Notes under the pieces: model-generated
Databases searched by the model: none
What the model was told of the DNA's origin: nothing
What the model saw: the letters and a program-made list of their open reading frames with translations, nothing else
From: an uncultured Oscillospiraceae bacterium
GTDB taxonomy: Bacteria; Bacillota; Clostridia; Oscillospirales; Oscillospiraceae
NCBI GenBank assembly: GCA_947629975.1
Contig: CANRFU010000006.1
Span: 1 to 38,773 of the forward strand
Reading direction: 5' to 3'
Length of the DNA stretch: 38,773 bases
In this document: positions 26,306 through 33,311 of the stretch, in pieces
Position numbering within the stretch: position 1 is the stretch's first letter
Layout: each line of letters begins with the position of its first letter
Position numbers and translations under genes: made by a program

Positions 26306-27181
26306 ATGAAATCCAAAGTCTATTTCACCAAAACCATCACCCCCGAATCCCTCATCAGGCTGTATGACGCCATGGGCGTCCAGCTCCCGGGCAGGGTGGG
26401 CGTCAAGATCCACTCCGGCGAGACGGGCAACCAGAACTTCCTCCGCCCCGCCCTGCTGGGCCCCGTCATCAACCACGCGGGCTGCGCCATCGTGGAGTGC
26501 AACACCGCCTACGCAGGCACCCGGGACACCACAAAGGCCCACTGGGACACCATGAAGGCCCACGGCTGGACCGGCGCCGCCCCCGTGGACATCCTGGACG
26601 AGGACGGCGACATGGAGCTGCCGGTGAACGGCGGCAAACACCTGAAGGTGAACTACGTGGGCGCCCACCTGAAGAACTACGACTCCCTGTTCATCCTCTC
26701 CCACTTCAAGGGCCACCCCATGGGCGGCTTCGGCGGCGCGCTGAAAAACATGTCCATCGGCCTGGCCTCCTCCCGGGGCAAGCAGCACATCCATGTGGGC
26801 GGCAGCGGGTCCGAGGGCTTCAACGCCCTGATGACCGCCGACCACGACGCCTTCCTGGAGTCCATGGCCGACGCGGACAAGGCCGTCATGGACTACTACG
26901 GCGACAAGCTGGCCTTTATGAACGTGATGGCCAACCTGTCTGTGGACTGCGACTGCTGCAACGTGGCCGCCGACCCGGAGATGGGCGACGTGGGCGCTCT
27001 GGCCTCCCTGGACCCGGTGGCCCTGGATCAGGCCTGCCTGGACCTGGTGTACAACTCCCCCGACCCCGGCAAGAAGGCCCTCATCGAGCGCATCGAGTCC
27101 CGCAACGGCCTGCTCACCGTCAAGGCGGCGGTGGCCCTGGGCCTGGGCTCCACCGAGTACGAGCTGGTGGACATCGGCTGA
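26306..27181 (+). CDS. DUF362 domain-containing protein
   Basis: This 291-residue protein of the DUF362 family has the conserved VGVKIHSGE, YAGTRDTTKAH and GALKNMSIGLASSRGK segments and a DCDCCN cysteine cluster at about 213-217. Many relatives carry a C-terminal 4Fe-4S ferredoxin domain; this short form lacks it and ends soon after the VALDQACLDLV stretch. No enzymatic function is established for this type. It shares a transcript with the AI-2E-type permease and is followed by a strong terminator. Ribosome binding site CAGGAGG. Confidence 0.87.
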   Translation: MKSKVYFTKTITPESLIRLYDAMGVQLPGRVGVKIHSGETGNQNFLRPALLGPVINHAGCAIVECNTAYAGTRDTTKAHWDTMKAHGWTGAAPVDILDEDGDMELPVNGGKHLKVNYVGAHLKNYDSLFILSHFKGHPMGGFGGALKNMSIGLASSRGKQHIHVGGSGSEGFNALMTADHDAFLESMADADKAVMDYYGDKLAFMNVMANLSVDCDCCNVAADPEMGDVGALASLDPVALDQACLDLVYNSPDPGKKALIERIESRNGLLTVKAAVALGLGSTEYELVDIG

Positions 27182-27195
27182 ATCTGGATATGACA

Positions 27196-27224
27196 AGAGG
27201 GCGGCTTTCAGCCGCCCTCTTTTT
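27196..27224. terminator. Shared terminator between DUF362 gene and mnmA
   Basis: An 11-bp perfect stem (27196-27206 with 27210-27220) with a TTC loop is followed by TTTT on the plus strand. The mnmA stop codon lies four bases beyond on the opposite strand. Confidence 0.9.
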
Positions 27225-27227
27225 GCA

Positions 27228-28298
27228 TCATAACACCTCTTTGATGGTCCCGCCCCCCAGGACCGTCCCGTCCCGGTAGAGGACGGCCGCCTGGCCGGGG
27301 GTCACCGCCCGCTGGGGCTCGCGGAAGCGGAGGATCACCCGCTCCCCCTCCGCCGTGACGGTCACCGGCTGCTCCCTCATGCGGTAGCGGGTCTTGACCT
27401 CCGCCTCAAAGGGCCCCTCGGGGGTCAGGGCCATCCAGTTCCAGTCCTCCGCCGCGCAGCTTTCGCTGTACAGGGCGCTCTCCGGCCCCAGGGTCACCGT
27501 GTTGGCCGCCATATCCTTGGCACAGACGTACACCCGCTCCCCGGCGGGCACGCCTAAGCCCCGCCGCTGGCCGATGGTGTATCCGGCGGCCCCCCGGTGG
27601 GTCCCCAGCACGTTCCCCGCCCGGTCGATCAGGTCGCCGGGGACGCTTTTCTCCCCCGTGTGCCGCTCGATGAAGGCCAGGTAGTCCCCGTCGGGGACGA
27701 AGCAGATGTCCTGGCTATCGTGCTTGCGGGCGTTGACAAAGCCCTCGGACTCCGCCAGGGCCCGGACCTCCCCCTTGGTCATCCCCCCCAGGGGGAACAG
27801 GGTGTGGGCCAGCTGGTCCTGGGTCATGGCGTACAGCACATAGCTCTGGTCCCGGCTGAGGTCGGCGGCCTTTTGCAGCAGATACCGCCCGTCCTGTTGG
27901 ATGATCCGGGCGTAGTGCCCTGTGGCGATATAGGCACACCCCAGCTCCTGTGCCCTCCGGTACAGCCGCTCAAATTTCAGATACCGGTTGCAGTCGATGC
28001 AGGGGTTGGGGGTCTCCCCCGCCCGGTAGCTGTCGATGAACTTCCGGATGACCTTTTCCTCGAAGTCGTCCATGAAGTTGAAGGTGTAGTGGGGGATGCC
28101 CAGCCGGTAGCACACCGCTTTGGCGTCCTCCACGTCGTCCAGGGTGCAGCAGGGGTGGCCCTTGTCCAGGCCGATGTCCTCGTTGCCGAACAGCCGCATG
28201 GTGGCGCCGATGCACTCGTACCCCCGCCGCATCAGCAGCAGGGCCGCCGCGCTGGAGTCCACCCCGCCGCTCATGGCCACCAGGACCTTCTCCGCCAT
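27228..28298 (-). CDS. mnmA: tRNA-specific 2-thiouridylase MnmA
   Basis: This ~356-residue enzyme adds sulfur at U34 of tRNA-Lys, -Glu and -Gln. It has the ATP-binding PP-loop AMSGGVDSS, the first catalytic cysteine in NPCIDCNRYLKF (about residue 101), the second in SQDICFVPDGDY (about residue 198) and the C-terminal beta-barrel region with YTIGQRRGLG. The sulfur donor is a persulfide from a cysteine desulfurase; one is encoded at 11444. Start 28298 is seven bases from the AAAGGGGG site; ATG 28301 is equally possible and adds one Met. It is transcribed from a perfect consensus promoter (28330-28358). Confidence 0.95.
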   Translation of the reverse strand: MAEKVLVAMSGGVDSSAAALLLMRRGYECIGATMRLFGNEDIGLDKGHPCCTLDDVEDAKAVCYRLGIPHYTFNFMDDFEEKVIRKFIDSYRAGETPNPCIDCNRYLKFERLYRRAQELGCAYIATGHYARIIQQDGRYLLQKAADLSRDQSYVLYAMTQDQLAHTLFPLGGMTKGEVRALAESEGFVNARKHDSQDICFVPDGDYLAFIERHTGEKSVPGDLIDRAGNVLGTHRGAAGYTIGQRRGLGVPAGERVYVCAKDMAANTVTLGPESALYSESCAAEDWNWMALTPEGPFEAEVKTRYRMREQPVTVTAEGERVILRFREPQRAVTPGQAAVLYRDGTVLGGGTIKEVL

Positions 28299-28329
28299 CA
28301 TGCCGCCCCCTTTCATCGGTTTCGCTCAG

Positions 28330-28358
28330 ATTATAAGGCCCCGGCCCTCCCCTGTCAA
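28330..28358 (-). promoter_or_regulatory. Perfect consensus promoter of mnmA
   Basis: On the minus strand TTGACA (28353-28358) and TATAAT (28330-28335) are separated by exactly 17 bp. Both hexamers are perfect sigma-A consensus. The spacer is GC-rich because it is also the 3' arm of the upstream terminator stem. Confidence 0.88.
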
Positions 28359-28373
28359 GGGAAGAGCCGGGGC
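28338..28373 (-). terminator. Terminator-like hairpin of the YhfC-MerR cassette, overlapping the mnmA promoter
   Basis: On the minus strand a 15-bp stem with two G-T pairs (28373-28359 with 28352-28338) closes a six-base TTGACA loop. The mnmA -10 region (CTTATAAT) follows where a U tract would be. It lies 17 bases after the stop of the gene at 28391. Confidence 0.7.
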
Positions 28374-28390
28374 GCTGTCTGTTATGGAAC

Positions 28391-28783
28391 TCAGCCGGAG
28401 ATCTTGAATCCGCCTTTGTGGCTGTCCGCGTCAAGGGTGATCTCGGTCCTGCCTGTGGTCTCCACGTCAAAGGACGCGGTCCCGATGTCCCGCCGGGAGA
28501 AAATCACGTTCCCCGCTCCGTCCCTCATCTCGATGGAGAGGGCGCCGGACTGGGTCTCCACCTCCACGTGGAGGACGTCCCCCTCCGGGTGAAGGGTGTG
28601 TCGCTCCTGGCCGTCCAGCATCACATAGCTGGCCGACCACTCCCGCCAGCCCCCATGCCCCATATAGCCCATCCGGACGGAGGACCGTTCGGTGCCGAAG
28701 ACCACCGCCACGATGATCAGCGCGGCTAACAGGACCCCCGCCAGCACGAAGGCCAGAGGGCCCTTTGCCCGATACCGTTTCAT
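28391..28783 (-). CDS. Single-pass membrane protein of unknown function
   Basis: This 130-residue protein has a short basic N-terminus, one membrane helix (about 10-29) and an extracytoplasmic domain of ~100 residues. The domain is predicted to be beta-rich, with a GALSIEMRDGAGNVIFSRRD region and an ETTGRTEITLDAD stretch. I do not recognise a family. The ATG at 28783 has only a weak ribosome binding site (ATCGGGT), so translation may depend on coupling from ybjQ, whose stop is 22 bases upstream. It is the last gene of the YhfC-MerR cassette. An anchored envelope domain fits a membrane-stress context, but that is inference. Confidence 0.72.
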   Translation of the reverse strand: MKRYRAKGPLAFVLAGVLLAALIIVAVVFGTERSSVRMGYMGHGGWREWSASYVMLDGQERHTLHPEGDVLHVEVETQSGALSIEMRDGAGNVIFSRRDIGTASFDVETTGRTEITLDADSHKGGFKISG

Positions 28784-28805
28784 ACCCGATCGATCCGCGC
28801 CGGGG

Positions 28806-29123
28806 TCACTTGTACTTGACGGCGGTGCCGTAGGCCACCACCTCGGCGGCCCCCTGCATGACCGAGGACGAGCCGTACCGGATGTTCAGGATGGCGTCGG
28901 CCCCCAGGGCCTCGGCCTCGTCCACCATCCGCTTGGTGGCGATCTGGCGGGCCTCGGTGAGCATCTCGGTGTAGCCCACGATCTCTCCGCCGACGAGGGT
29001 CTTCATGCCCGCCATGAAGTCCTTGCCGAAGTGCTTGCACTGGACGATGGTGCCCTTCACCACGCCCAGGGCCTCGAACTTCTTATCAGAGCCGGGGATA
29101 TAGTCAATATTGAGCAGCAGCAT
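28806..29123 (-). CDS. YbjQ/UPF0145 family protein
   Basis: This 105-residue protein of the YbjQ (DUF74) family opens with LNIDYIPG instead of the more usual TTTT..I. It keeps the family core EALGVVKGTIV, TEARQIATKRMVDEAEALGADAILNIRYGSS and the C-terminal AYGTAVKY. Members form symmetric oligomers and were suggested to bind metals, but no activity is proven. It overlaps the upstream membrane gene by 20 bases, so it is likely translated with it. Placement in a MerR-controlled cassette is notable, as MerR proteins often sense metals or stress. Ribosome binding site AAGGAGG. Confidence 0.88.
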   Translation of the reverse strand: MLLLNIDYIPGSDKKFEALGVVKGTIVQCKHFGKDFMAGMKTLVGGEIVGYTEMLTEARQIATKRMVDEAEALGADAILNIRYGSSSVMQGAAEVVAYGTAVKYK

Positions 29124-29370
29124 CTGATTCTCCTCCTTCGATTTCTTTGAAGCGCGCCCTCAGCACCCACAGGGCGGGCAGGAACAGCAGAACGAAAACA
29201 GCAGCGCAAATCCCCAGGACGATCTGGGCCGCCAGAGGGATCTCCGGGATGAAGCACAGGCCCGCCATCACCGCCGCCGAGCCCAGCATGATCAGCCCAT
29301 AAATGGCAACCCCCAGGGCAGCAGCCCGTTTTTTCCGGCGGTGGGCCGCCTCAATACTTTCTGGCCTCAT
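29104..29370 (-). CDS. Small two-helix membrane protein
   Basis: This 88-residue protein has two membrane helices (about 17-39 and 44-69) and a charged C-terminus. I recognise no family. It overlaps merR by 20 bases upstream and ybjQ by 20 bases downstream, an unusually tight arrangement that implies translational coupling. The ribosome binding site GGGGGAGG lies inside merR. It could be a membrane partner of the regulator or the protease in this cassette, which is inference from position only. Confidence 0.78.
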   Translation of the reverse strand: MRPESIEAAHRRKKRAAALGVAIYGLIMLGSAAVMAGLCFIPEIPLAAQIVLGICAAVFVLLFLPALWVLRARFKEIEGGESDAAAQY

Positions 29371-30001
29371 CTTCCTCCCCCTTTCCGATCTCCCGGATGC
29401 GCTGGATCAGGGCGTACAGCACCCCGAAGATCACCACCACCGGGACGGCGATCAGAATGACCAGCGTCCACAGGGGCGGGGCGTACTCCGGGTCGATGGT
29501 GTACGCCCACACGATGAGCCCGATGGGCGCCGCCATCAGCAGCGTCATGAGGAGCGCCACCACCGTGGGCGCCACATAACGCCTGATCTTGTCGGTCTTT
29601 TTCACATTCACAAATCTGGTCCCCTCCTGTTCTTTCTGGGCCATCCGCGCCAGCACCCCGTCGGCGTCCAGGGTGTCCAGCCTCGCGTGGTCCTCTTTCA
29701 GGGAGGCGCACAGCGCCGCCATCTCCGCCAGACTGGCCTTCCGCCGCTCCAGCTGGATCACATGCCGGTCCATGGCGTCCTTCAGGGTCAGTTCCCCGGA
29801 TTTGAGCCGCTTGATCTCCTCGATGGGCACGTCCAGCATCCGCAGCAGCCGGATCTTTTTCAGCCACTCCACGTCGGCCTCGCCGTAGTCCCGGTAGCCG
29901 TTCTCGCTGTTGCGGCCGGGGGTGAGCAGCCCCTCCTTTTCATAAAAGCGGATGTTGCCCTTGGTGATCCCCGCCAGCCGTTCCACCTCGTTGATCTTCA
30001 C
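29351..30001 (-). CDS. Membrane-anchored MerR family transcriptional regulator
   Basis: This 216-residue protein has an N-terminal MerR winged helix-turn-helix (1-70: KINEVERLAGITKGNIRFYEKEGLL, NGYRDYGEADVEWLKKI), a coiled-coil dimerisation helix (about 78-125) and a C-terminal hairpin of two membrane helices (about 143-167 and 177-198). The membrane anchor replaces the usual ligand-binding domain. The GTG at 30001 is preceded by AAGGGAGG; codons upstream run into the operator. Its own promoter (30026-30056) and that of the neighbouring protease (30854-30884) are near-identical MerR-type promoters, so it probably controls both. The signal is presumably membrane-related. Confidence 0.9.
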   Translation of the reverse strand: MKINEVERLAGITKGNIRFYEKEGLLTPGRNSENGYRDYGEADVEWLKKIRLLRMLDVPIEEIKRLKSGELTLKDAMDRHVIQLERRKASLAEMAALCASLKEDHARLDTLDADGVLARMAQKEQEGTRFVNVKKTDKIRRYVAPTVVALLMTLLMAAPIGLIVWAYTIDPEYAPPLWTLVILIAVPVVVIFGVLYALIQRIREIGKGEEDEARKY

Positions 30002-30025
30002 GGCCCTCGCCTCCCTTCTGAGCCC

Positions 30026-30056
30026 ACCGTACACCTTCCACCAAGTGGAAAGTCAA
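30026..30056 (-). promoter_or_regulatory. MerR-type promoter and operator of the merR gene
   Basis: On the minus strand TTGACT (30051-30056) and TACGGT (30026-30031) are 19 bp apart, the long spacer typical of MerR-activated promoters. The spacer holds a perfect dyad, TTCCAC-N3-GTGGAA (30036-30050). The -35 overlaps the stop codon of the upstream protease gene. Confidence 0.85.
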
Positions 30057-30811
30057 GAGGTTTTTTGCGTTTTTTTCAAATTTTGATAGACGATCCCCGC
30101 GAGGCAGGCCGCCAGCACCGCAACGGCCGCCGTGGCCGCCTCCGCCGCCGCGATGCCCGCTTTGGCGTTCAGCGTCACCGCCAGGAAGTCGGCCCCCGCG
30201 TGGAGCAGGACGGCGGCGAAGTACAGCCAGCCCTTCCCCGGCTGCCGCGCGGCGGCGAACACCAGCACGGAGTTGCTGACATGAAGGGCCACCGCCAGCA
30301 CCCGCTCCAAAGCCGTCCAGAGGAACATCCACGCCGGGACAGCCGCCACGGTCTCCGCTGCGGACAGCACCGCCGGGTCGGTGACGGCGCCGCTCCCCGC
30401 CAGCAGCAGCACAAGCAGATTGTTCAGCATGGCGACGCCCACGACCAGCACCGCCTCGGCGCCGCCGTGGCCCGCGCCATAGGCCAGGGCCGTGGCGGGT
30501 GCCGTGTGCTTTTTCAGCAGGAACCGGAAAGCAATGAACCGCCCCGTCTCCTCAAAGAACCCCGCCGCCAGGCCGCCGTAAAGGCCGTAGAGCCAGATAT
30601 TCCCCTGGATCGCCCCACCCAGGGGGCCGCCCAGCACCAGGGCGTGGAGTATCTGCTCCAGCACTAAGGCGGAGACAATAAAGGTCCCCGCGCCCACCCA
30701 GAAGGCGGACCACCTTCCCCCTTTCCTGCGGTACCACAGCATCAGGCCCAGGGGCAGGGCCAGCGTCAGAAGCCCGGTAAACACGATCGCCGCGATCTGC
30801 AACGCGCTCAC
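30053..30811 (-). CDS. YhfC-like glutamic-type intramembrane protease
   Basis: This 252-residue polytopic protein has about seven helices. It carries the motif pattern of the YhfC family in the CPBP-like intramembrane protease group: FFEETGRFIAFR (EExxR, about 92-103), YGAGHGGAEA (about 116-125), ALHVSNSVLVF and LLHAGADFLA. The Glu and His residues lie in or near membrane segments and fit an active site. The start at GTG 30811 follows GGAGAGGAA; the open frame upstream contains the -10 of its promoter and cannot be coding from that transcript. It precedes merR by 51 bases and has a promoter nearly identical to merR's. The substrate is unknown. Confidence 0.85.
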   Translation of the reverse strand: MSALQIAAIVFTGLLTLALPLGLMLWYRRKGGRWSAFWVGAGTFIVSALVLEQILHALVLGGPLGGAIQGNIWLYGLYGGLAAGFFEETGRFIAFRFLLKKHTAPATALAYGAGHGGAEAVLVVGVAMLNNLLVLLLAGSGAVTDPAVLSAAETVAAVPAWMFLWTALERVLAVALHVSNSVLVFAAARQPGKGWLYFAAVLLHAGADFLAVTLNAKAGIAAAEAATAAVAVLAACLAGIVYQNLKKTQKTS

Positions 30812-30853
30812 TTCCTCTCCAGTTTCGGGGCGCCGCGGCCCCCTTTCAAGGTC

Positions 30854-30884
30854 AGCGTACACCTTCCACCAAGTAGAAGGTCAA
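30854..30884 (-). promoter_or_regulatory. MerR-type promoter and operator of the yhfC-like gene
   Basis: On the minus strand TTGACC (30879-30884) and TACGCT (30854-30859) are 19 bp apart. The spacer has the same dyad as the merR promoter with one change (TTCTAC-N3-GTGGAA on the minus strand). The segment 30856-30892 matches 30028-30064 at 34 of 37 positions. Confidence 0.84.
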
Positions 30885-30916
30885 GGGGTTTTCGCAAATT
30901 TCTCAAAATATTTTTT

Positions 30917-30942
30917 CGGGGCCGGGAGATCTCCCGGCCCCG
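30917..30942. terminator. Perfect 26-base palindrome after the GerMN gene
   Basis: A 13-bp perfect GC-rich inverted repeat centred on AGATCT lies six bases beyond the GerMN stop. On the minus strand it is followed by an A run and then TATTTT, so it is not a textbook U-tract terminator. It still probably ends the regulator-kinase-GerMN transcript. Confidence 0.5.
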
Positions 30943-30948
30943 CCGATC

Positions 30949-31830
30949 TCAATCCCGTGCCCCGGGCAGCAGCGGCCCGGACAGGTCGATCTCCCCGTAG
31001 CGGCTGACGCTCTCGCCCTCCACCAGGATCTGCACCTGTTCCACTGCGTCCAGGCTGCACAGGGTATCCACCAGGGACTCGATGACCAGCTCCCGCTCCT
31101 CCGCCGTCTCCGGCATCTCATCCAGGAGCGCCGAGGACACGTTGACTGAGCACACCCCGCCGTCCATCCAGGCGGCGTACACCGCCAGATCCGCGGGCAG
31201 CAGGGGCGCCAGGGCCTCCTCGTTCTCCGGCCCGGCGACGAGGGCCTCCAGCACCGCCTGGGCGGGGGCCTCGTCCTCGGTGAGGCGGAAGGTGCGCAGC
31301 TCATAGCCCAGCCCGCCGCCGCTGGCCATGCGGAAATAGAGGGTGGCGGGCACCTCCACCGGCTCCTCCTCCGCGCCGGAGAACACCACGTCCCCCGCCC
31401 GGAGCAGCCTTCCCTGCCCCTGTCCGTCCACAAAAATGCGCACCCCGTCGATCCCGCTGAGCTGGGTGAGGGTCAGGGTGACGCAGTAGTCGGCCAGGGT
31501 CCTGTCCACCCCCTCCAGGGCGGCATAGGGGGCGGACAGCTCCACCCGGACCACCCGGTTCTCCACCGACCAGCCCAGCAGGGCGGTGCCCGCGGGGGCA
31601 AAGGCGGCCAGCCCGCCCGCCCGGTCGCCGGGGCCGCTGAGCAGGGCGTCCATCAGGCCGGGGACGGTCCCGTCGCCCTCATAGGGCGTACCGGACAGGG
31701 CCGAGGCCAGATCGTCCCGGGCGGTGGGGAACCACAGGGACAGTCCCTCCGCCGCCTCGGCCCTGGGCCGGGCGCAGCCGGAGAGCAGACAGCACAGCGC
31801 CAGGGCCAGCGCGAACAGCCTCTTTCTCAT
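30949..31830 (-). CDS. GerMN domain lipoprotein (GerM-like)
   Basis: This 293-residue protein has a signal peptide ending in the lipobox LLSGC (Cys19), so it is a predicted membrane-anchored lipoprotein. Two GerMN domains follow: residues about 55-150 with WSVENRVVRVELSAPYAALEG, and about 180-280 with AAWMDGGVCSVNVSSALLDEM. GerM in Bacillus is required for spore and peptidoglycan assembly. The gene overlaps the histidine kinase stop by four bases. An operon of response regulator, kinase and GerMN lipoprotein parallels MtrA-MtrB-LpqB of Actinobacteria, where LpqB modulates the kinase; a similar role here is inference. Confidence 0.87.
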   Translation of the reverse strand: MRKRLFALALALCCLLSGCARPRAEAAEGLSLWFPTARDDLASALSGTPYEGDGTVPGLMDALLSGPGDRAGGLAAFAPAGTALLGWSVENRVVRVELSAPYAALEGVDRTLADYCVTLTLTQLSGIDGVRIFVDGQGQGRLLRAGDVVFSGAEEEPVEVPATLYFRMASGGGLGYELRTFRLTEDEAPAQAVLEALVAGPENEEALAPLLPADLAVYAAWMDGGVCSVNVSSALLDEMPETAEERELVIESLVDTLCSLDAVEQVQILVEGESVSRYGEIDLSGPLLPGARD

Positions 31831-33311
31831 CCCTGTCCCTCCCCCTTCCCGGTGAGGGCGGGGAACTCCGCGTAGAAGACGGTGCCCCTCCCCGCCGGAT
31901 TTGGCTCCGCGGTGATGTCCCCGTTGTGGAGGCGGGCAATGTCCCGGGCGATGGACAGCCCCAGCCCGGTGCCCCCCCGCTCCCTAGACCGGGCCTTGTC
32001 CACCCGGTAGAAGCGGTCAAAGATCCTGGGCATGTCCTCCGCCGGGATGCCCACCCCGGTGTCGGCCACGGACAGGACCACCTTGTCCTCCTGCCGGAAC
32101 ACGGACACGTCCACCCGTCCCCCCGGCACGTTGTATTTGATGGCGTTCTCGATGAGGTTGAAGGCCACCTGATAGAGGTCGTCCTCGTTGGCCAGCAGGG
32201 CGCAGGCCGGCTCCAGCTTCCGCTCCAAGGCGATGCCGTTCGCCTTCGCCAGGGGCAGGAGCATATCGGCCACCCGCGCTGTCACCGCCCCCAGCTCCAC
32301 CGGCTCCCGCTCCCGCTCGGCGCCGGCGTCCAGCCGGGTGAGGGTGAGCAGCCGCTCGCTGATCCGGGTGAGCCGGTCGGCCTCGTCCCCGATGTCGGAC
32401 ACGAACTCCCGCACGGTGCCCATGTCCACGCTGTCGTTCTGCAAAATGGAGTCGGTGAGCAGGCGGATGGAGGCCAGGGGGGTCTTCAACTCGTGGGAGG
32501 CGTCGGACACGAACCGGCGGCGGGCCTCCTCGGTGGTCTGGAGCCGCTCCGCCATCTGGTTGAACTCGCCCGCCAGCTGGGCCATCTCGTCCCCGCCCCG
32601 GATCACCGCCCGGTGCCCGTACTCGCCGCCCCGCAGGCGGCGGATGGCGGCCAGCAGCCGGCCGGCGGAGCGGGTGAGGGCCTCGGAAAACAGCAGGGCC
32701 AGCACCGTCGCCGCCGCGCAGATGACGATGGAGATGTTCCTCAGGTTGTTCTGGATGGACAGCAGGATCTCCGCCTGCTCGCCGTCGTACTCATAGAGGT
32801 AGACGCAGCCCAAGATCTCCCCCCGGTACACCACCGGCACGGCGGCGCGGCCGCGAAAGGCCCCGTCCCGGTACTCCAGCCGCCACACGTCCCTGCCGCC
32901 CAGGGCGGCCACCACCTCCCCCATCAGGGCGTAGCCGTCCCTCCGGTTGTCCAGGGTGGAGTTGTCGTAGAGGATACGGCCCTCCCCGTCGGTGACCAGC
33001 ACCCGGGTGGCCTGCACGTCCTCCAGCAGGGCCATGGTCTGCCCGGCGCTCTCGGCGGTGAGGGCCTCGGACACGGACAGGGCGGAGCCGATGACCAGGG
33101 CCTGCCGCCGGAGGGCGGCCGCCTTGGAGGAGAACACCATGTCCTCCGCCATGATGAGGGGGTAGGTGTTCATCACCGCGATGATGGCCGCCACCGCCAG
33201 CAGATAGGTGAGGGCGTATTTGACCCGGATGGAGCGCCAGAAGGGGACCCTGGTCCGCTCCCGCTCCGCCCGGTTTTCCCGCTCCGGCCGCCTTGCCGCC
33301 GCCTCCGCCAT
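31827..33311 (-). CDS. HAMP-containing sensor histidine kinase
   Basis: This 494-residue kinase has a membrane helix at about 31-53, an extracytoplasmic sensor of ~140 residues, and a second helix at about 192-209. It continues with a HAMP linker (about 210-262), HisKA with SHELKTPL (phosphorylated His273), and a HATPase domain with NLIENAIKYN, VADTGVGIP and GGTGLGLSI. The sensor region resembles a small PAS/CACHE-type domain but is not assigned. It is encoded just downstream of its likely response regulator and coupled to the GerMN lipoprotein. A WalK/PhoR/MtrB-like role in cell-envelope control is plausible. Confidence 0.93.
   Translation of the reverse strand: MAEAAARRPERENRAERERTRVPFWRSIRVKYALTYLLAVAAIIAVMNTYPLIMAEDMVFSSKAAALRRQALVIGSALSVSEALTAESAGQTMALLEDVQATRVLVTDGEGRILYDNSTLDNRRDGYALMGEVVAALGGRDVWRLEYRDGAFRGRAAVPVVYRGEILGCVYLYEYDGEQAEILLSIQNNLRNISIVICAAATVLALLFSEALTRSAGRLLAAIRRLRGGEYGHRAVIRGGDEMAQLAGEFNQMAERLQTTEEARRRFVSDASHELKTPLASIRLLTDSILQNDSVDMGTVREFVSDIGDEADRLTRISERLLTLTRLDAGAEREREPVELGAVTARVADMLLPLAKANGIALERKLEPACALLANEDDLYQVAFNLIENAIKYNVPGGRVDVSVFRQEDKVVLSVADTGVGIPAEDMPRIFDRFYRVDKARSRERGGTGLGLSIARDIARLHNGDITAEPNPAGRGTVFYAEFPALTGKGEGQG

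Follow-up and report, generated by a model that had tools for sequence, protein, structure and literature searches.

The 38,773-nucleotide (nt) stretch analyzed here (the window), part of the 1.86-Mb genome of an uncultured Oscillospiraceae bacterium, contains a gene row read on the minus strand in which yhfC, merR, a gene for an 88-amino acid (aa) two-helix protein, and ybjQ follow one another in the order of transcription. The MerR protein carries a C-terminal membrane hairpin, and comparison with relatives identified YbjQ, not YhfC, as the conserved partner of this MerR-hairpin. The row and its flanking signals comprise the following features (TM, transmembrane; HTH, helix-turn-helix; scores from the weight matrix described below):

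30858..30884, minus strand: putative MerR-type operator/promoter core before yhfC, with a TTGAC −35 element, a dyad, and a 19-bp spacer (score 45.7)
30053..30811, minus strand: yhfC, GTG start, encoding a putative intramembrane metalloprotease of the YhfC family (PF10086 and motif alignment)
30030..30056, minus strand: putative MerR-type operator/promoter core before merR (score 51.4), kept in relatives
29351..30001, minus strand: merR, 216 aa, encoding a MerR HTH, a dimerization region, and a predicted C-terminal two-helix membrane hairpin
29104..29370, minus strand: gene for a small 2-TM protein of 88 aa, a second hairpin copy by alignment, overlapping both merR and ybjQ by 20 nt
28806..29123, minus strand: ybjQ, encoding a soluble protein of the YbjQ/UPF0145 family (PF01906), the conserved partner of the hairpin
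28391..28783, minus strand: gene for a 130-aa one-helix protein without a Pfam family, an optional member of the row

The −35 element of the merR operator overlaps the yhfC stop codon, and no RNA element from Rfam matched at its gathering score in positions 27000–32000.

The N-terminus of MerR matched the Pfam models for a winged HTH (MerR_1, PF13411, E 7.4e-21; PF00376, E 4.1e-11), and hydropathy analysis placed two hydrophobic segments at residues 146–164 and 181–199 (Kyte-Doolittle peaks 2.44 and 3.04). A DNA-binding domain and, judged by hydropathy only, TM segments are therefore joined in one chain, as in transmembrane regulators. The linker and tail are rich in Lys and Arg and the short loop is acidic, a pattern compatible with a hairpin that has both termini in the cytosol; the loop spans about 16 residues, so that an outer sensor domain is lacking. 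No further Pfam domain scored over its cut-off across residues 146–199, where a typical MerR would carry an effector-binding domain. This absence weakens the label of a typical MerR and not the membership in the MerR HTH family, as the effector domain is typical of the family and not universal. The NCBIfam models for CadR, CueR, and ZntR gave 52.8, 50.2, and 45.6 bits, below their cut-offs of 151.45, 147.4, and 167.95, which places the protein outside these metal-sensing families, and its sequence contains a single cysteine. Among close sisters in the clade of the window, the DNA-binding part is 96–99% identical and the helices are 47–70% identical.

The 88-aa protein has hydrophobic segments at residues 23–41 and 46–64 by hydropathy. 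Its C-terminal part aligns with the MerR tail (39% identity over 38 residues, BLASTP E 6e-5 in a single comparison), and both proteins end in R-x-(R/K)-E-I...G-E...Y, which makes the small gene a second hairpin gene. Tandem hairpin genes, the later ones overlapping the next, lie between merR and ybjQ in two loci of relatives (L091, 6001–7939; L092, 4199–6263). By their arrangement, these arrays are repeated duplications of the hairpin together with its coupling junction. The YhfC protein (252 aa) matched PF10086 with 155.2 bits (E 2.4e-45, gathering cut-off 24.2) and contains the EExGR, GHGGxE, ER, and His positions, which are nearly invariant in a 14-member alignment; the departures are L225, which lacks the EE and the His, and L222, with one Glu fewer. 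These results bear out the coordinates and the description given in the original prediction, namely a membrane-anchored MerR ending in two helices, an overlapping small two-helix protein, and a YhfC-like neighbor with EExxR and His motifs. Beyond that description lie the resemblance of the two tails, the ybjQ gene, and the two operators.

YbjQ matched PF01906 over its full length with 117.9 bits (E 3.7e-34, cut-off 23). Of 14 well-known control genomes, 10 encode a member of the family, and Protein Data Bank entries exist for relatives (1y2i, 1vr4, and 2gtc, five chains each). To our knowledge, no function has been assigned to it. UPF0145 appears without a function in the tables of C. difficile stress-proteome and interactome studies (PMC6262375, PMC6459899).

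The genomic context of the system was examined in named relatives (Oscillospiraceae, class Clostridia). Among 25 genomes of the genus, 14 encode this MerR, one of them in two pieces on separate contigs, and a merR-adjacent ybjQ is present in every one; an ortholog of this ybjQ was found in none of the 11 genomes without the MerR. At the level of individual loci, ybjQ directly follows merR in all 24 readable genus loci as well as in the window, with the truncated loci L093 and L096 left out of the count. Genome G004 contains solely a different type of YbjQ without a hairpin, and the second ybjQ copies of G022 and G011 are likewise of this kind. The association with YhfC, which the original prediction had placed at the center of the system, is far looser. 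Of 25 assessable genus loci, 3 have yhfC before merR (4/26 with the window), and in a second family (f45) yhfC adjoins the merR row in 1 of 10 loci. Within the genus, YhfC was found in 6 of the 14 genomes that encode this MerR, one of the copies being broken, and in none of the 11 that lack it; several genomes are incomplete, and the contrast is suggestive of a link to MerR but phylogenetically dependent. YhfC occurs in 20 of 148 genomes of the class sample, and none of the 21 YhfC loci found there outside our own has this MerR or its operator nearby. On these adjacency counts, YhfC was rejected as a conserved neighbor of merR. In the f45 genome G506, the row reads operator-merR-ybjQ-yhfC with almost no gaps, and YhfC has, by gene order, been recruited to the MerR module more than once, yet is dispensable to it.

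The hairpin also exists as a gene of its own. A profile of the hairpin matched in 22 of 341 genomes of the class, and all 21 loci outside our own carry a stand-alone hairpin gene that ends inside the start of ybjQ. With a wider profile, 46 of 391 genomes matched, the four weakest matches (in long frames) probably being chance, and ybjQ was the next gene in all 29 retrieved loci outside our own (27 stand-alone and two fused). The two fused loci (L204 and L206) belong to family f45 and are complete MerR-hairpin fusions. A search of 200 genomes of this family found hairpins in 32, of which 11 lie within frames of 213–246 aa; the 10 that had a locus all match MerR over its full length and precede ybjQ, and the eleventh frame had no locus. 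MerR-hairpin-ybjQ is thus present in two families, and the hairpin-ybjQ pairing spans 15 families among the examined loci of the class sample. For the stand-alone hairpins of f45, ybjQ lies downstream in 17 of 19 cases, with the contig of L240 ending too early. Hairpin gene and ybjQ share exactly 20 nt at 11 of the 13 loci of the fused group, the other two showing a gap, and at 21 of the 25 stand-alone loci, the remaining four not being readable by the search expression. As a consequence of this overlap, the ribosome-binding site and start of ybjQ are located inside the hairpin tail; the tail motif was considered as a recognition signal for a protease or adaptor and discarded, since its last residues are dictated by these ybjQ elements. 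In a tree of 63 YbjQ proteins (few columns, rows chosen by hand), the 21 members of fused systems and the ambiguous L253, from a short contig, fall on one side of a branch with 100/97 support, a topology that fits one origin of the fused system.

Two sites of the form TTGAC(Y)TTC(Y)ACTTGGTGGAAGGTGTA are present on the minus strand at 30030–30056 and 30858–30884, just before merR and yhfC. A pattern drawn from both had 0 expected matches in shuffled sequence, and the 1.86-Mb genome contains no third operator within three mismatches. At a spacing of 19 bp, the −10 boxes of the window, read by eye, are TACGGT and TACGCT; relatives have TACCAT or TAGTAT. An overlong promoter spacer (19–20 bp) is a hallmark of MerR activators, and the dyad within this spacer, found at both window sites and kept before merR in relatives, identifies the sites as MerR-type operators at the sequence level. 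A weight matrix was built from 14 merR-proximal sites of the genus and used to scan both strands of 26 named loci (556,822 positions). Every score of at least 28 belonged to a site before merR, which all 25 loci with upstream DNA have, or to one before yhfC (L071, L072, and L073). Scores of 12–23 comprised the reverse strands of such sites, second dyads close upstream of merR (L081 and L083), and one weak hit of 14.8 in L095; above 20, the scan gave nothing besides the merR and yhfC sites and their reverse strands. The sites of the second family and those before yhfC and nfeD are independent of the matrix training. In f45, the best operator-like site lies 52–180 nt before merR in all 10 fused loci (scores 14.6–44.8). 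The 19 stand-alone hairpin loci of this family scored at most −1.8 on either strand (L245 without upstream DNA, L253 with little), and the 21 stand-alone loci of the class sample scored at most 0.7.

In the remaining 13 genomes of the genus that encode this MerR, 27 sites lie within three mismatches of the pattern, and the reversed pattern gave none. Thirteen of the sites precede merR, seven precede nfeD-stomatin genes, two precede yhfC, and two are at contig ends; the remaining three lie, one each, before a DUF1648-like gene with an ATP-binding cassette (ABC) transporter, before another ABC transporter, and before an unknown gene of 188 aa. One NfeD and one stomatin were checked against PF01957 and PF01145, and the DUF1648 match is below its cut-off. 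Most of these candidate targets are membrane proteins. By matrix score, yhfC has a site in seven of the eight genus genomes examined: those of the window and of L071, L072, and L073 (G006), and, unlinked to merR, G016 (28.5), G017 (28.3), and G021 (36.2). The one yhfC lacking a site is the broken copy in G013. The yhfC loci from other genera of the order (two in G038, one each in G030 and G028) have no site on either strand. Of the 12 assessable genomes that encode this MerR, 7 have a site before nfeD, G006 and G023 having none; of the 11 genomes without it, 1 does (G004). The unlinked yhfC genes with a similar site, the low adjacency, and the row in G506 together make it likely that YhfC is not an obligatory activating protease but an output or modulator of the system that is optional and co-regulated. 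The MerR-YhfC pairing of the original prediction is therefore borne out as a link beyond chance, through the operator before yhfC (7/8) and the G506 row, and not as a conserved pairing.

We consider it probable that the row encodes a membrane-anchored one-component switch, in which a MerR module has been fused to the hairpin of a hairpin-ybjQ pair and a signal from the membrane or from YbjQ activates its own promoter and that of yhfC. The fusion itself, the single group of linked YbjQ proteins, the overlap with ybjQ, and the operators before merR and yhfC are read directly from the gene rows and alignments. From these we infer the contact between hairpin and YbjQ and the nature of the signal, that the promoters are activated and not repressed, and that YhfC serves as an output or feedback element and not as a trigger. 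The DNA-binding and dimerization module of MerR would have been joined to the hairpin of a gene pair that is widespread in Clostridia, and the dimer would stay at the membrane while bound to the promoters with 19-bp spacers that precede its own operon and yhfC and, in relatives, to that of the NfeD-stomatin operon. With YbjQ on its cytosolic side, the hairpin would report the state of the membrane and thereby determine how the MerR dimer is twisted. Altered membrane conditions, or altered binding of YbjQ to the hairpin, would most likely reshape the dimer, which would then twist the DNA and activate the promoters. The products (more hairpin, YbjQ, and YhfC) could in turn affect the membrane or the switch itself, with YhfC as a target whose product may act on membrane proteins or feed back on MerR. 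The fast divergence of the helices fits the readout of a membrane property better than it fits a precise cleavage site.

Several observations weigh against this switch. One stand-alone hairpin of f45 (L230) shows no ybjQ downstream, and the hairpin tail by itself is no proof of a protein contact, as its final residues are partly forced by the ybjQ start. The matrix scores within the genus are not independent, since several training genomes recur among the scored loci, and the three-mismatch pattern failed to pick up the weaker yhfC sites of G016 and G021. Within three mismatches, the f45 genome G386 has the merR site alone and G404 has none. The operator consensus is also common to other MerR subfamilies, including MerR proteins of Blautia, and 11 sites occur in genus genomes without this MerR: seven precede a MerR of a 301–313-aa type, two precede nfeD copies in G004, and two are apparently chance. 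G004 (64% complete) thus has a site before two nfeD copies with no MerR of this type detected. The nfeD of the window has no site and was dropped as a target. Since the consensus is shared among MerR subfamilies, the operator was set aside as sole proof of this MerR, and the assignment of yhfC and nfeD to it rests on co-occurrence.

A broader version of the proposal, which we advance tentatively as possible, is that hairpin-YbjQ is a sensor of membrane state widespread in Clostridia and that a single fusion to MerR would have turned it into a switch for a set of genes resembling the σW regulon (YbjQ, YhfC, NfeD-stomatin, and the DUF1648-like protein with its ABC transporter), with YhfC, a protease encoded within the regulon, resetting or sharpening the switch. 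The σW-RsiW-PrsW system is a membrane stress system of Bacillus; it resembles the present one in its membrane-anchored control point, its PrsW-like protease, and its NfeD/flotillin-type targets (here in relatives), but the regulator here is a MerR and not a sigma/anti-sigma pair, and the protease is optional and apparently co-regulated. The row shares with MerR proteins of the CueR, CadR, ZntR, and SoxR type the HTH, the dimerization region, the dyad inside a 19-bp spacer, and a site before its own gene, whereas in place of the C-terminal ligand domain there is a membrane hairpin, which in other loci has its own gene, paired with ybjQ. As in ToxR, CadC, and TcpP, a DNA-binding domain and membrane segments are combined in one chain; unlike in these, the MerR part is N-terminal, a loop of about 16 residues joins the two helices, an extracytoplasmic sensor is absent, and the predicted cytosolic partner is YbjQ. 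The match of this YbjQ to the family of 1y2i, 1vr4, and 2gtc extends over the full length; what differs is that its gene shares a row with a MerR-hairpin. Regulators anchored in the membrane have been described before, with more than a hundred types of DNA-binding domain in a published survey (PMC10269533), whose main text does not mention MerR regulators (the one word match is an author name). The proteolysis of anchored one-component regulators has been reviewed as well, and MerR is likewise absent from the main text of that review (PMC7593790). Literature searches gave no MerR-hairpin-YbjQ system among the matches listed, some queries being poorly aimed. If correct, the proposal would describe a MerR activator that reads the membrane without a ligand domain and would tie the YhfC protease family to a regulon. 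With the membrane partner of YbjQ naturally fused to a DNA-binding domain, and with a promoter that can be read, the function of YbjQ becomes testable, and a switch of this kind in a gut bacterium would point to a little-known way of sensing membrane trouble.

An alternative that we judge unlikely is that the hairpin merely anchors MerR, with the tie to ybjQ reflecting translational coupling of non-interacting genes and the signal being read elsewhere. The helices are weakly conserved, and much of the conservation in the tail can be a constraint on RNA and reading frame, as the ribosome-binding site and start of ybjQ lie within it. Such a passive tether would, however, have to account for a hairpin-ybjQ pairing that is found in 15 families and survives the fusion to MerR, for ybjQ staying beside a hairpin in L091 and L092 despite the inserted extra hairpins, and for the RxKEI stretch of the hairpin tail, which is conserved upstream of the overlap.

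Cleavage of the MerR hairpin by YhfC within the membrane under stress, freeing or destroying the regulator, is a less likely reading still, to which we give little credence. By its Pfam match and its EExGR, GHGGxE, ER, and His positions, YhfC resembles the YhfC, PrsW, and CAAX (CPBP-like) proteases; it is apparently co-regulated with merR and sometimes adjacent to it. We take DUF2324 to be the YhfC family. In a passage of PMC3482391, DUF2324 is called PrsW-like. Two other yhfC genes lie beside different DNA-binding proteins with hydrophobic segments (of a MerR type in L210 and XRE-like in L215), which also favors a proteolytic role. Against it, YhfC was not found in 8 of the 14 genus genomes with this MerR (several incomplete), yhfC is adjacent to merR in just the 4 of 26 and 1 of 10 loci given above, the helices diverge quickly even between sisters that both have YhfC, and the loop of MerR is too short for an obvious site-1 cleavage. 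In contrast to systems of regulated intramembrane proteolysis, in which the anchored regulator always comes with a dedicated protease, YhfC is not a constant companion here; another protease is conceivable. As a general mechanism, the YhfC-dependent release put forward as one option in the original prediction is thus not supported, given the presence of YhfC in 6 of 14 genomes, the low adjacency, and the fast divergence of the helices, in which no conserved cleavage site is apparent. Relatives of the YhfC fold can be non-proteolytic, LnsB being an example given in part of PMC7387801, the YhfC of pneumococcus is entered without a substrate in a list within PMC7939560, and no YhfC substrate was found among the literature matches listed. 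Finally, a metal-responsive MerR with YbjQ as a metal-binding helper is very improbable: PF01906 is labeled as putative heavy-metal-binding and CadR, CueR, and ZntR are the best NCBIfam resemblances of MerR, but their scores far below the cut-offs led us to reject a metal sensor, and the single cysteine, the membrane hairpin as C-terminus, and the predominance of membrane proteins among the regulon candidates argue in the same direction.

Other arrangements of yhfC were seen in the class sample. In L210 (1447–2965), yhfC overlaps the gene for a different MerR of 242 aa with a hydrophobic segment and paired Cys motifs, and an upstream gene of 117 aa resembles, by eye, the tail of that MerR without the HTH. 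In L215 (1390–2889), yhfC adjoins the gene for a DNA-binding protein that is XRE-like by eye and has two hydrophobic segments; it may be another type of anchored regulator that neighbors YhfC. In L222 (1025–2232, family f31), a ybjQ-like gene lies directly before yhfC, with no MerR hit and no hairpin open reading frame of at least 70 aa. In the window, the gene for the 130-aa one-helix protein (28391–28783) sits between ybjQ and mnmA; some sisters have it and others do not.

Additional membrane-bound MerR types occur in the genus. Genomes without the 216-aa MerR encode a MerR of 301–313 aa with the same type of operator (L017, L018, L020, L021, L029, and L031), present in tandem copies in G001 and G020, and in the six such proteins that were read, a soluble part is followed by two terminal hydrophobic segments. 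MerR proteins of approximately 480–525 aa with several hydrophobic segments after the HTH were found in L019, L023, L025–L028, L030, L032, L097, and L098. By their predicted topology, several membrane-anchored MerR designs coexist in one genus, and L032 (1495–3000), on contig C5 of the genome to which the window belongs, provides this genome with a second membrane-bound MerR type.

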